Part shown: in pieces, positions 53,621 to 58,725 of the stretch
How positions within the stretch are numbered: position 1 is the first letter of the stretch
Layout: the number at the start of each line of letters is the position of its first letter
Assembly (NCBI GenBank): GCA_003213515.1
Contig: QCMV01000004.1
Coordinates: 1 to 64,000 of the forward strand
Source of the DNA: Pelagibacteraceae bacterium AG-422-N09
GTDB lineage: Bacteria; Pseudomonadota; Alphaproteobacteria; Pelagibacterales; AG-422-B15
DNA length: 64,000 nt
Reading direction: 5' to 3'
Notes under the pieces: generated by a model
Database searches by the model: none
What the model saw: only the letters and a program-made list of their open reading frames with translations
Told to the model about the DNA's origin: nothing
Program-made: the position numbers and the translations under genes

Positions 53621-55123
53621 ATGGCTATTTTCAAAGAATATACAAATTATGATGGTTTGGGCATAGCCGAATTAATTAGAAATAAAGAAATATCCCCTAT
53701 TGATCCTCTTGATAGTGCCATTGATCTAATTGAAAAACTGAACCCTAAATTAAATGCAGTGCATCGTACAATGTATCACTACGCATTCGAGTCAATAAAT
53801 AGAAACAAAGAATTAAAAGGAACTTTTATTGGAGTTCCATTTCTTATGAAAGATATGGATAGTTCTCTAGCTAACTATCACATGATGCAAGGCAGTAAGT
53901 ATTTAAAAAATACTAAAATGCCTTACGACAATCACCTCACAAGACAATTTAGAGAAACTGGTGCTGTTATATGTGGAAAATCTGCAACACCTGAATACGG
54001 TCTAATGGTTACAACTGAGCCAACTGAATTTGGCCCAACAAGAAATCCTTGGGATACCAATAGAACGACAGGTGGCTCAAGTGGTGGTGCAGCTTCAGCT
54101 GTTTCAAGTCGCATAGTTCCTATTGCACATGCAAGTGATGGTGGTGGATCAATTCGAATTCCTGCTGCATCATGCGGTCTGGTTGGATTAAAGCCTAATA
54201 GAGCAAGAACATCATTCGCACCTTCTCACGGTGATAAATGGGGAGGTCTTACCCACTCCGGTATTGTTTCTCGAACAGTCAGAGATACGGCTCATATGTA
54301 TGATTGTTTGTTCGGAAACGTTGTGGGTGATCCCTATGGAATTCCATACAAAAAAGGTTCTCTTGTTGAAGCATTGAGTAAAAAAAATAAACTTAAAATT
54401 GGGTTCAATCTTAAAAGTCCTGTTGGAATTGAACCCTCCTCTGATGCAATAGAAGCAATTAAATTCAATGCCAAATTATGCGAAGACTTAGGTCATGATG
54501 TTGAAGAAATGAATTTCAGTTATGACGGACTGCTCGCTGCAAGAGCATTTACAATAACTATATCGTCTCATGTAACCCAGATGTTTAATGAATTGAAAGA
54601 TGTTGTTGGAAGAGGATTTAAGAAAAATGAAGTTGAAACGGCAACTAGACTATTTAATTACTTGGGAAAAAGTTTCAGAGCGAGTGATTACACTTGGGCA
54701 CGTTATACTATGCAAAAGATTGCTCGATCAGTAATGGAAGAAACTGATAAGTACGATGTAGTCTTGACTCCTATCATATCTCAGAAACCTCCTTTCATTG
54801 GCGAAATTAGACCAAACAAACAAGCGAGTATTTTAAGTGAAATCATTATGACTTTAAAATTGGGTTGGGTATTTCGTATTCAATCAATTAGAGACACAAT
54901 TCTTAATAACTTAGCACCTGAGAGTTTATGGTACTCGCCTGATGCAATGCTTCAGAACATTACTGGACAGCCATCAATTTCATTACCAACATATTGGACT
55001 AGTGGCAATCTACCTTTAGGCGTACAATTTGCATCTAGATATGCAGATGAAGAAACATTAATTTCTCTGGCTGCTCAATTAGAGGAAATATCTCCTTGGA
55101 TTAACAAAACTCCAAATTTATAA
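53621..55123 (+). CDS. Amidase (amidase signature family)
   Basis: GVPFLMKDMDSS, TGGSSGGAASAVSS, HASDGGGSIRIPAASCGLVGLKPNR. Confidence 0.95.
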   Translation: MAIFKEYTNYDGLGIAELIRNKEISPIDPLDSAIDLIEKLNPKLNAVHRTMYHYAFESINRNKELKGTFIGVPFLMKDMDSSLANYHMMQGSKYLKNTKMPYDNHLTRQFRETGAVICGKSATPEYGLMVTTEPTEFGPTRNPWDTNRTTGGSSGGAASAVSSRIVPIAHASDGGGSIRIPAASCGLVGLKPNRARTSFAPSHGDKWGGLTHSGIVSRTVRDTAHMYDCLFGNVVGDPYGIPYKKGSLVEALSKKNKLKIGFNLKSPVGIEPSSDAIEAIKFNAKLCEDLGHDVEEMNFSYDGLLAARAFTITISSHVTQMFNELKDVVGRGFKKNEVETATRLFNYLGKSFRASDYTWARYTMQKIARSVMEETDKYDVVLTPIISQKPPFIGEIRPNKQASILSEIIMTLKLGWVFRIQSIRDTILNNLAPESLWYSPDAMLQNITGQPSISLPTYWTSGNLPLGVQFASRYADEETLISLAAQLEEISPWINKTPNL

Positions 55124-55795
55124 ATTTTTATTCTTTATTTGGCTGTTGAAGCAGAAGGTAAGAGAAAAAATACTGATAATATGGATTATTGCTATAGATT
55201 TTTGCATTAATACATTTTGCACTAATAGTTCTTCATTCAATCTTGGATCCCCGGAATATATTTGATAAATTACATAGATAACGGTTGATATAAGAAAAAT
55301 AATATTCACAACAGTATACTTATTGTCTGCATTACTAAGAAAAAAGGCAATTACAAAGAATAATGATGCTGGTACTAACCAACGAAATGCATTTATTGCA
55401 AAAAATACATGTGCATCTCTATATAAATCGTGTGGTGTTAGGGCTACTCCAGCAAAAAATACCATTCCAATGAAAAAAAGTACTGCTGCTATACATGCAC
55501 AAAAATAAGAAACTTTATTTTCTGTAAACAACGATGGAATGAAAAAACTTGATATTCCGACCAATAAAAAACAAAAAAGCGCGGAGTTAAAAAAAAATGA
55601 TGAAATGCTGTTAATATCTCCCGCAAATGTAATGTAACCACCCAGTTCACTTAAAAAATTATGACTAAATGAATAACCAATCTGATCAGGATTATGTATG
55701 TTTCCTCCTGGAAAAAAATATGAGGCAATAATTACTGAGACAATAAAAAAAATTGATACAAATCGAATGATATAGACTGTCCAAAATTTAGTCAT
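55118..55795 (-). CDS. DUF998-like membrane protein, paralogue 3
   Basis: YFFPGGNIHNPDQIGYSFSHNFLSELG...GVALTPHDLYRDAHVFFA; ORF open to 55801. Confidence 0.65.
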   Translation of the reverse strand: MTKFWTVYIIRFVSIFFIVSVIIASYFFPGGNIHNPDQIGYSFSHNFLSELGGYITFAGDINSISSFFFNSALFCFLLVGISSFFIPSLFTENKVSYFCACIAAVLFFIGMVFFAGVALTPHDLYRDAHVFFAINAFRWLVPASLFFVIAFFLSNADNKYTVVNIIFLISTVIYVIYQIYSGDPRLNEELLVQNVLMQKSIAIIHIISIFSLTFCFNSQIKNKNL

Positions 55796-56504
55796 TTGCA
55801 TTTTTTTTTCCTATTAACTTATCGAGGCCAAACGTAAACATGATAATCGTTGTAATCATTAGAATAATCATCACCTTCTGTAACACTACATTAAATATCA
55901 AGAAATCCATTGTGTACGTTTCTAGAAAACGAACACGGTCATTTATTGCATCAATCGGTTGAAAGTCACCAAGATAATAGGCATAAACTCCTACTGCAAT
56001 AAAAAGTAGTATACCTCCTGACGCATAATAGTTTGATAAAGGACTAAATAAAAAAGCAAGAACATAAAAGAGAATTGCTGCAGAGTATAAATTAAATGCC
56101 ATAGTTGTAGTAAATAAATGCGCATCAAAGTAAATATCACCTGGTGTTAAGGCAACTCCTACAAAAAAAATACAAGCTGGAAACATAAATAATGTTCCTA
56201 AACAAGCAAATATAAACGAGTAACGATTTACCCTAAATAAACTCGGAATAAACAAAAAAGCTATGCCTTGTAATAAGAGCATGTACATTGCAGTATTCCA
56301 AAAAAACGATGAAAAAAAATTTAAATCTCCAGACATTGTTTTATGAAAACCAAGCTCACTAAGAAAATTTTTATGAAATGAATAACCTACTTGATCTAGT
56401 TCTATATGATTACCGCCAGGGTATAGAAGCATAGCAATGATTACCGCAAAAATATAATAAGCAGATGCAATTCGTAGGATATGCACACACCAGAACCTAG
56501 TCAT
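55788..56504 (-). CDS. DUF998-like membrane protein, paralogue 2
   Basis: LLYPGGNHIELDQVGYSFHKNFLSELG...GVALTPGDIYFDAHLFTT. Confidence 0.65.
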   Translation of the reverse strand: MTRFWCVHILRIASAYYIFAVIIAMLLYPGGNHIELDQVGYSFHKNFLSELGFHKTMSGDLNFFSSFFWNTAMYMLLLQGIAFLFIPSLFRVNRYSFIFACLGTLFMFPACIFFVGVALTPGDIYFDAHLFTTTMAFNLYSAAILFYVLAFLFSPLSNYYASGGILLFIAVGVYAYYLGDFQPIDAINDRVRFLETYTMDFLIFNVVLQKVMIILMITTIIMFTFGLDKLIGKKNAND

Positions 56505-57207
56505 TTAAAAGTTTCTTGTATCCAAATGTAAAGATCAGAATACTGATCATAGAAATAACTGTAATTATTTTTTGCCAAATAACTGATATTGTGAAACGGT
56601 TGTAATCTATGAACTCTCCAACATTTTCTAATTCAAATGGATTGAAGTCAGGTGGAGGCTCACTTGTTTCAAATATTGTATAAAGAGCGACATTTATAAA
56701 ATAGATAAAAGCAACAATAGTATATCTATTACTTATTTTGCTCAGTAAAAATGCGATTGTCATAAAAAAAATACCTACGGTTTGAGCGTTAAAAGCTAAA
56801 ATAACAAACCAAACATGCTCTTCAAAATAAATATTAGCTGGTGTTAAACCAACGCCAATGAAAGATATTCCAGAAATAACTAATAAAATTGATGCAATGA
56901 CTGAAATCACATAAGTTTTCTTATTCTCTCTAAATAAATTTGGTACAAATACGTGAGAGACAGCGCATAGTCCCATTATCAACAAAGAGCTGTTAAATAA
57001 AAAACTTGAAAGAAAGTTCTGAGTGCCATCGCGAGTAAATGTGATTCCTAAGTCACTAAAAAAATTTCCACTAAAAGAGTAAGAATTTAAATCTGGATTA
57101 AATAAAGTTCCTCCTGGAAATAAAATCATAGCAACGGCATTCGTTACAATAAAATATGCAATCATGAATCTAAGCGCATATACAGGAATGTAGCCAAAAT
57201 TTGTCAT
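56497..57207 (-). CDS. DUF998-like membrane protein, paralogue 1
   Basis: ILFPGGTLFNPDLNSYSFSGNFFSDLG...GVGLTPANIYFEEHVWFV. Confidence 0.65.
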   Translation of the reverse strand: MTNFGYIPVYALRFMIAYFIVTNAVAMILFPGGTLFNPDLNSYSFSGNFFSDLGITFTRDGTQNFLSSFLFNSSLLIMGLCAVSHVFVPNLFRENKKTYVISVIASILLVISGISFIGVGLTPANIYFEEHVWFVILAFNAQTVGIFFMTIAFLLSKISNRYTIVAFIYFINVALYTIFETSEPPPDFNPFELENVGEFIDYNRFTISVIWQKIITVISMISILIFTFGYKKLLND

Positions 57208-57315: not shown

Positions 57316-57657
57316 ATGGAAAATCCAGCTAGATATACAAATTACAAAGATTTTTTTCCTTTCTATTTAAGGGAACACAGCAAAAAAAGCACGAGGATGC
57401 TGCATTATTTTGGAACGATTGGATACCAAGTTCTATTCTGGTCCCTGCTGCTAACTCAAAATTACTTATTCCTGCCTTTGATCTTACTTGCAGGTTATGG
57501 TCCTGCATGGATTGGGCATTTCTTTATAGAAAAAAATAAACCCGCTACGTTTAAATATCCTTTATGGTCTCTCATTGGTGATCATCATATGGCTTATTTA
57601 ATGCTTACTGGCAAACTTAAGAAAAAATTATCTGATGCCGGGGTATCAGCTACTTAA
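57316..57657 (+). CDS. DUF962/Mpo1-like membrane protein
   Basis: FFPFYLREHSKKSTRMLHYFGT, GYGPAWIGHFFIEKNKPATFKYPLWSLIGD. Confidence 0.88.
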   Translation: MENPARYTNYKDFFPFYLREHSKKSTRMLHYFGTIGYQVLFWSLLLTQNYLFLPLILLAGYGPAWIGHFFIEKNKPATFKYPLWSLIGDHHMAYLMLTGKLKKKLSDAGVSAT

Positions 57658-58068
57658 AACATAATACGCAGTTCCAAGAAACAATAACAACAAAGCAGTT
57701 TGTGAAAAAATCCAGATAGCACCTCTTGCTGCAGTGTTATTGAAACAGATATGCACAATAGAATGGATCAATCTAAATAATAAATATAACCATGCGCAAA
57801 TTAGCAAAAAAGTGCTTTCGATTTCAATAAAAACGATAACCCCGATCAGAAAATAAAAAATTACTGAAAACTCAAATATATTTGAAATATTATTTTTTAT
57901 AATTTTTAAATATAATGGTGCATCTTTATAAGGCTCAATAGGGATTCCACTTTCCTCCCAGTCTTTGCCTTTGCCCATTAGATTAACTGATGCGATTGTA
58001 TGAATTAATCCAATAACAAAAGTTAATAAAATAAGCCCAAGTGCTGGAACTAAAATATTAGTTAACAT
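57646..58068 (-). CDS. MAPEG family membrane protein (ORF open to 58131)
   Basis: NISNIFEFSVIFYFLIGVI, WLYLLFRLIHSIVHICFNNTAARGAIW. Confidence 0.8.
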   Translation of the reverse strand: MLTNILVPALGLILLTFVIGLIHTIASVNLMGKGKDWEESGIPIEPYKDAPLYLKIIKNNISNIFEFSVIFYFLIGVIVFIEIESTFLLICAWLYLLFRLIHSIVHICFNNTAARGAIWIFSQTALLLLFLGTAYYVLSS

Positions 58069-58505
58069 TAGATCATTAAAGAGCAAGCTCGATAAGCCAT
58101 CCATGCTAGGATAATCGTAGACGGTAACCAAAATAGTGTTCTAACTGGTAAGGCTACACCAGGTATGATTTTATTAAAAAATATGTGAACGATTGAGTGC
58201 AGAACTCTTAACCAAAAGAACCATGTTGCTAACAACATAAAATACTCATCAACTGTTCCCGTTACATAAATCATAATGCAAACAGCGTAAAAGAAGATTG
58301 GAAATTCGAACAAATTTGTCAAATTTCGCTGACTATTTTGAATTAATTCGCTGCCGTTTTCAAATGTGGGTATTTTAAAATCATCTTCTGTATTCTTCTT
58401 ATCGATGACAATGGCCTTTAGTCTAAGAACTGTCCCAAAGGCAAAAACAGCCAAAGAAAGCCAAAGCATATTGATGACTGGCTCAAAAATTAATTCGGGT
58501 TGCAT
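58068..58505 (-). CDS. MAPEG family membrane protein (ORF open to 58568)
   Basis: NLTNLFEFPIFFYAVCIMIYV, WFFWLRVLHSIVHIFFNKIIPGVALP. Confidence 0.8.
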   Translation of the reverse strand: MQPELIFEPVINMLWLSLAVFAFGTVLRLKAIVIDKKNTEDDFKIPTFENGSELIQNSQRNLTNLFEFPIFFYAVCIMIYVTGTVDEYFMLLATWFFWLRVLHSIVHIFFNKIIPGVALPVRTLFWLPSTIILAWMAYRACSLMI

Positions 58506-58576
58506 AATAAACTCCTTGATTGAAATAAGAATCCAGTAAATTATATATACTAATTCAGTTTTAACCATATTTAATG

Positions 58577-58589
58577 AAAGGAGGTGGTC
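58577..58589 (+). promoter_or_regulatory. Extended Shine-Dalgarno AAAGGAGGTGGTC
   Basis: Matches the complement of a canonical 16S 3' tail GAUCACCUCCUUU over 13 nt (one G-U). Confidence 0.75.
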
Positions 58590-58590
58590 T

Positions 58591-58689
58591 ATGTCTATAG
58601 GTAGTATAGAGGAGCTTTGCTCGAGTAGTGAAATTCCATGTGATTGTAGATGTGGAAACCTCCACTTTTTGAGTGGAGCTCCGTTTTAA
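58591..58689 (+). CDS. Putative 32-aa Cys-rich peptide
   Basis: Manual translation MSIGSIEELCSSSEIPCDCRCGNLHFLSGAPF*; very strong SD 6 nt upstream; followed by a terminator. Confidence 0.55.
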   Translation: MSIGSIEELCSSSEIPCDCRCGNLHFLSGAPF

Positions 58690-58696
58690 CTACATT

Positions 58697-58725
58697 AAGC
58701 CCCCATTAATTTGGGGGCTTTTTTT
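58697..58725 (+). terminator. Intrinsic terminator
   Basis: AAGCCCCC-attaattt-GGGGGCTT followed by TTTTT. Confidence 0.92.

Follow-up and report, generated by a model that had tools for sequence, protein, structure and literature searches.

What is the function of a 32-codon reading frame that is preceded by a Shine-Dalgarno (SD) sequence complementary to the whole 3' tail of the 16S rRNA, and that is placed with its own terminator in a gap between two genes of the opposite strand? This question is raised by positions 58577-58725 (+) of the window, the whole 64,000-nucleotide stretch of Pelagibacteraceae bacterium AG-422-N09 DNA that was analysed. The gap runs from 58509, the start of a minus-strand MAPEG gene, to 58724, the end of a minus-strand 4HBT thioesterase gene, both assigned by Pfam. 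A promoter-like site (TTGAAA, 16 nt, TATATA; 58520..58547, +) places the expected RNA start at 58554-58557, and the sequence around it, TTGATTGAAATTAGAATC...ATTATAT, is conserved in sister genera; some of that conservation could instead reflect the ribosome-binding site of the divergent MAPEG gene. Next come the SD, AAAGGAGGTGGTC (58577..58589, +), and the mini-ORF (58591..58689, +), which opens with an ATG at 58591, 6 nt after the GGAGG core, encodes MSIGSIEELCSSSEIPCDCRCGNLHFLSGAPF and closes with a TAA at 58687-58689. An intrinsic terminator (58697..58725, +) completes what would be a free-standing transcription unit, with an expected RNA of ~170 nt. The initial annotation, made from the letters alone, had put the SD, ATG, ORF, an internal hairpin, terminator and flanking genes at these same positions and had called the unit a standalone mini-gene. 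Both points hold. The unit has its own promoter-like site, SD, ORF and terminator, and the wider class to which it belongs mostly has terminators as well. On the minus strand, two tandem MAPEG-family genes (Pfam PF01124) are found at window positions 57646-58568, and three tandem ORFs of 227-238 aa at 55118-57207 look like paralogous membrane proteins.

The host's own 16S rRNA 3' end, ...GGTTGGATCACCTCCTTT, could be read from its genome. Complementarity with the SD extends over 13 nt with one G-U, as had been proposed from a canonical tail, and because the tail read is the host's own, the match is real; it also goes well beyond what chance would give. The duplex has an energy of -22.2 kcal/mol. 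Among the other genes in the window (69 ORFs of 100 aa or more formed the comparison set), the best reaches -15.4 and the median is -8.1, which bears out the suggestion of a very strong translation signal. The string AAAGGAGGTG occurs three times in the 1.22-Mb draft genome (antisense to the 16S end, in the interior of one coding region, and in the window SD), and it is used as an SD in the window unit only. Extended SDs have been described elsewhere. For instance, the rpsU mRNA of Flavobacterium johnsoniae pairs with the 16S tail at below -13 kcal/mol, allowing autoregulation as a sensor of ribosome state (PMC9976891). The window SD, at -22.2 kcal/mol, lies below that threshold, though the energy program used in PMC9976891 may differ. 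However, the rpsU SD drives the gene of ribosomal protein bS21, whereas the window SD drives a mini-ORF that matches no Pfam or NCBIfam family, has a 16S-like segment inside it and encodes a non-conserved peptide.

Conservation within the window's family gives a first indication of what is being maintained. Most genomes of the genus carry the unit at this position (88-100% identity), as do eight genomes of three sister genera (69-79% identity), and near-identical copies occur in Pelagibacterales AG-919-N17 and AG-891-J04. No match to the 5' block was obtained in about 100 genomes from the order's other family. In eight drafts from the same genus that lack the RNA, the neighbouring thioesterase is missing too, in a search that lacked its own positive control; contigs absent from the drafts or loss of the entire locus would account for this equally well as loss of the RNA. 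Over the four genera the SD is invariant except for G/A at one position, and a variable middle separates a nearly invariant 5' block, TGAAAGGAGGTGGTCTATGTCTA, from a nearly invariant 3' block, GGAAACCTYCACTTTNTRAGTGGAGCTCCG. The reading frame, start codon and TAA are maintained in all homologues and every indel in the ORF is of 3 nt; the unit has thus survived the refutation test set for it at the outset, which was a lack of conservation or the presence of frameshifting indels.

The peptide itself is weakly constrained, and most of it is not conserved across the genus and the three sister genera. Its cysteines are replaced in relatives by Tyr, Arg and other residues, no match was found with the 32-aa sequence in Pfam or NCBIfam, and viral contigs scanned with it held no relatives. 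Between the window and locus L014, pS is 0.11 in the mini-ORF versus 0.755 in the adjacent thioesterase, with pN equal in the two (0.026 and 0.027, respectively), and between the mini-ORFs of L026 and L061 pN (0.19) is greater than pS (0.15). Synonymous sites are frozen too, so the selection to which these comparisons point is on the nucleotide sequence, and therefore mainly on the RNA, and to a lesser degree on the peptide. The idea of a Cys-rich metal-binding or RiPP-like peptide, put forward in the initial annotation, was dropped for these reasons: no Cys pattern is kept, and the adjoining genes encode MAPEG, thioesterase and SDR proteins.

What would such an RNA look like? A 156-nt transcript folds with z = -6.1, and none of 200 shuffles folds as well. 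In predicted folds, an outer helix, P1 (58601..58693, +), pairs 58601-58605 (GUAGU) with 58689-58693 (ACUAC), and a long rod (58608..58682, +) contains a conserved core helix of 58611-58615 (GGAGC) with 58678-58682 (GCUCC). All five P1 pairs are present in 18 of 19 sequences, the remaining one lacking the outermost pair, and an apical pair of the rod is preserved in genus relatives that have TAT for TGT. Both P1 and GGAGC/GCUCC hardly vary in the family and are therefore uninformative about covariation there; within the family, compensatory change is seen in the terminator only, between genera, in its stem. The hairpin CTCCACT-ttttg-AGTGGAG (58660..58678, +) is a feature of the consensus fold and one of several alternatives to the much longer rod; it is mutually exclusive with the rod and with SD pairing, and folding with the 5' part of the ORF kept open gives a related hairpin. 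Also within the ORF is a segment resembling the 16S tail, GGAAACCTCCACTTT (58654..58668, +), whose ACCUCC can pair with GGAGGU of the SD. At -12.3 kcal/mol it is the best partner of the SD within its own RNA, and the GGAAACCTYCACTTT in it is nearly invariant among 19 sequences. Neither this segment nor the rod to which the hairpin is an alternative appears in the initial annotation. An Rfam 15 scan at the window element returned sub-threshold noise and nothing above the gathering cut-off; 20 related loci and 10 more likewise gave no family match at the element.

A covariance search over the Alphaproteobacteria led, unexpectedly, to distant members in which AAAGGAGGTGGTCCAATGTCTA stands ahead of a mini-ORF and a terminator. 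The class block is defined here as AAAGGAGGTGRTC, 2-3 nt and TGTCTA with the start codon inside; nothing convincing was found when TGTCTA was compared with the 16S for complementarity. The window carries the block at 58577-58597, the only match to the pattern in genome G000, and its unit stands alone and has its terminator at about 170 nt. The exact pattern was found in 36 of 385 genomes, one in each, and with up to 3 mismatches in 78 of 289, almost always one per genome; the reversed pattern gave 0 in both cases. At least 27% of the sampled alphaproteobacterial genomes have the mini-gene, with matches in other phyla too, and a scan of named contigs yielded at least 118 loci. Rhodobacterales, Rhodospirillales, Hyphomicrobiales and Pelagibacterales are among the matches listed, as are metagenome-assembled genomes (MAGs) labelled Gammaproteobacteria, Nitrospinota and Gemmatimonadota, and labels outside Alphaproteobacteria need care. 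Several candidates were set aside along the way. Loci L072, L076 and L077 from the covariance search with the window's family were chance matches to the terminator only, beside true mini-genes; pattern matches on viral contigs were mostly ordinary phage genes; and nqrF matches to the Pararhizobium copy lay beyond the element, at the query's 3' end. No match to the element was obtained by blastn in phage records, nor to the Rhodobacterales copy in a plasmid collection.

In total, 148 loci were gathered with the 5'-block pattern, meaning that the SD and TGTCTA are common to them by construction. The first base of the start codon was left unconstrained, and the terminator, the short ORF, the start codon, the bases just ahead of the SD, the motif at +56 and the strand of the next gene were not used in collecting them. 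Start codons are ATG in 69, GTG in 58, TTG in 21 and CTG in 0, and the ORFs are short, usually 11-44 codons. Terminators were found at 130 of 141 loci versus 41 of 135 random positions, with a median end 167 nt from the SD. CAAC or TAAC immediately precedes the SD in 101 of the 148, and of 83 occurrences of the motif RGNRCARCCYY, 68 lie 55-57 nt downstream of the start codon. Neighbouring genes differ between lineages. Sequence comparison thus shows a mini-gene class that is widespread in Alphaproteobacteria, with start and stop maintained and peptides that are lineage-specific. Common ancestry of all the lineages remains unproven; locus counts are not counts of independent events, and predicted structures vary by lineage.

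In the Rhodobacterales group with 18 codons, the stop at codon 19 is TGA in 17, TAG in 16 and TAA in 12, and variation in the ORF is spread evenly over codon positions, with no excess at the third. A helix between codons 12-14 and the 3' UTR covaries strongly: 87% of cells are paired versus at most 49% when the partners are slid, and 42 double changes were counted versus 16 in shuffles. The 3' UTR of Rhodobacterales RNAs also contains UGGNYCAYCUCCUU, close to the 16S end UGGAUCACCUCCUU. Its CAYCUCC is paired with the SD in 95.4% of cells (55-71% when slid), with a match of 11-13 nt in some copies; one strand of this SD-mimic helix is almost invariant, which leaves no room for covariation. The Sinorhizobium meliloti SD is longer by one A (GGAAGG), and the 3' UTR partner, CCTTCCTTT (CCTTCC), fits. 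UGGAGCARCCUUC recurs in many alpha- and gammaproteobacterial copies, ~56 nt downstream of the start, and the window's family carries UGGAAACCUYCACUUU; the window itself has GGAAACCTCC at +63, without the CARCC form of the motif, and its self-complementarity is modest when taken alone (shuffle p 0.18). Over 88 representatives, SD self-complementarity is greater than in dinucleotide shuffles with a Stouffer Z of 8.7, a value that ignores relatedness among representatives that are not fully independent. For single genes the effect is modest (median p 0.17; 16 of 88 at p<0.05). Self-pairing has a mean energy of -12.8, and pairing to the 16S tail one of -23.3. Statistically, then, RNAs of this class are shown by their sequences to tend to bear a complement of their own SD, often one that is like the 16S 3' tail.

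We therefore read the window unit, at roughly even odds (about 0.5), as a standalone gene of ~170 nt for a translated regulatory RNA whose peptide would count for less than the RNA itself and the process of translation. The RNA appears to be previously unrecognised and may take part in sensing or tuning ribosomes; among the options of the initial annotation, that of a dual-function or ribosome-sequestering small RNA is the one in keeping with this reading. Literature on 16S-complementary sRNAs, super SDs, and Bradyrhizobium and Rhodobacter sORFs did not describe the class, and an SD combined with an internal copy of the 16S tail was not found in Rfam or the searchable literature.

In this reading, the SD would choose between the real 16S tail (~-23 kcal/mol) and its tethered internal look-alike (~-13 kcal/mol). 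With plentiful 30S subunits whose tails are accessible, the 30S would win and the ORF would be translated; passage of the ribosome would refold the RNA and free the anti-SD-like segment. Where 30S is scarce or its tail is masked, the RNA would close. We infer the gating step of the switch, and candidate outputs include availability of the anti-SD-like segment to RNAs or proteins, titration of 30S, or altered decay of the RNA. A bolder version, less likely than not, is that the elements form a widespread class of ribosome-sensing RNAs. Each would use its full complement of the 16S 3' tail to gauge how many such tails are accessible, against its own copy of the tail as an internal reference, and would switch fold accordingly, with a mini-ORF indifferent in sequence being translated as the read-out.

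One copy has very probably been detected in the laboratory already. The S. meliloti copy (CP090106.1, 1061 kb; locus L243) has an extended SD, ATGTCT and a terminator, with a RGGCAGCCC motif 54 nt downstream of the start codon; it stands alone and encodes MSNEISDLVMDMGEVKESRQPSA, 23 aa with a computed pI of 4.18. SEP1 (sORF1) of PMC10117765 is a small protein of 23 aa and pI 4.18, conserved in Rhizobiaceae by tBLASTn and confirmed on a Western blot. From length, pI and family range, the copy is very probably SEP1. It is like the window element in being standalone with an extended SD and terminator, but its peptide is unrelated to the window's. It was published as a small protein, and the accessible portion of PMC10117765 ties it neither to a class-wide RNA element nor to the 16S tail. 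A GGDEF and a DUF3750 gene flank the element (CP090106.1 1058114-1064160), and the record is labelled plasmid pSymB but is 3.7 Mb long, probably a mislabelled chromosome.

SEP1 brings up the simplest rival, that each unit is a plain small-protein gene, an efficient mini-mRNA whose product is the peptide. Maintenance of start and stop supports a translated ORF, with Ribo-seq support from SEP1 only (PMC10117765), and indels in multiples of three and, in the window's family, the conserved peptide ends MS..S.E and GNLHF.SGAP fit this well. We consider it unlikely as a general account, as peptides of different lineages are unrelated, codon positions vary evenly, synonymous sites are frozen, a covarying helix runs through codons and the cysteines are not kept. 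High translation of an sORF need not imply a functional peptide. A type I toxin would call for a hydrophobic toxic peptide paired with an antisense RNA; the peptides of the class look polar and differ from lineage to lineage.

Alternatively, the RNA could be a ribosome decoy, its full-length SD trapping 30S subunits or 70S initiation complexes on a mini-mRNA that yields no useful product, which would lower translation capacity, with the 16S-like segment as a self-brake. An SD duplex of about -22 kcal/mol and the unusually stable initiation complexes that strong SDs are reported to form on the F. johnsoniae rpsU mRNA (PMC9976891) are in keeping with this. However, SEP1 has the highest translation efficiency of 54 non-annotated S. 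meliloti Ribo-seq sORFs (PMC10117765), though pile-up at the start site could inflate that value. A single-copy gene would also need very high abundance to titrate ribosomes, and the fixed stop codon and downstream helix are left unexplained, making the decoy as doubtful as the peptide.

Similarly improbable is a trans-acting sRNA whose anti-SD-like segment (CAYCUCC, CCUUC or ACCUCC) would pair with the SDs of target mRNAs, translation controlling its availability. Such segments are conserved, and the alpha-r8 sRNAs of Caulobacter use an anti-SD-like 10-mer to repress a large regulon (PMC12559287), but here the segment is often inside predicted stems and a ribosome-bound ORF would be an unusual seed site. 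The alpha-r8 SisA-D (PMC12559287) and Bartonella BbsR14 (PMC7717549) share with the class an anti-SD-like sequence in a small RNA; the accessible parts of both papers describe no super SD with conserved start and stop, whereas here a single RNA carries complement and mimic together. With its short ORF, alternative hairpins and terminator, the unit resembles an attenuator, but a cis-acting leader peptide or attenuator is very improbable and largely refuted, as had been anticipated: beyond the unit the plus strand carries no gene for over 700 nt, and next genes vary and, over 138 loci, lie on the same strand in 68 and on the opposite strand in 70. For comparison, rnTrpL is also a translated, structured small RNA, but by the account in PMC10117765 it stems from the trpE attenuator, whereas the window element is an independent gene without a downstream gene.

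If the regulatory-RNA reading is right, the element would be an RNA gene of housekeeping-like character, conserved in Alphaproteobacteria as different as oceanic Pelagibacterales, rhizobia and Rhodobacterales, and of a class that annotation pipelines and Rfam miss. It would bear on the open question of how bacteria gauge free ribosomes and use the accessibility of the anti-SD, and S. meliloti or Rhodobacter would offer a genetically tractable handle on it.

Some variants deserve mention. A shorter version of 15-17 codons, with MSKILDLVTFYLRIES and MSIIILFVTTSYSQI, is seen at marine alphaproteobacterial or Pelagibacterales loci L151, L152, L154, L204 and L223, the last with a 10-bp SD complement inside the ORF. 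MAGs labelled Gemmatimonadota and Nitrospinota (L109, L122, L186, L207, L208; L139, L149, L184, L216) have TTG-start versions with shared peptides of their own and SD-complementary GATCGCC or GCTTCC segments. On a viral contig (L226:2606-2626), the same SD block stands ahead of a 35-codon Cys-rich ORF (VSSCNNPDCECDHCVCEDCSCS...). Lastly, in Inquilinus limosus, a Whalefall-1 RNA (Rfam RF01762; L129:7753-7804) shares an 8-kb stretch with the mini-gene.
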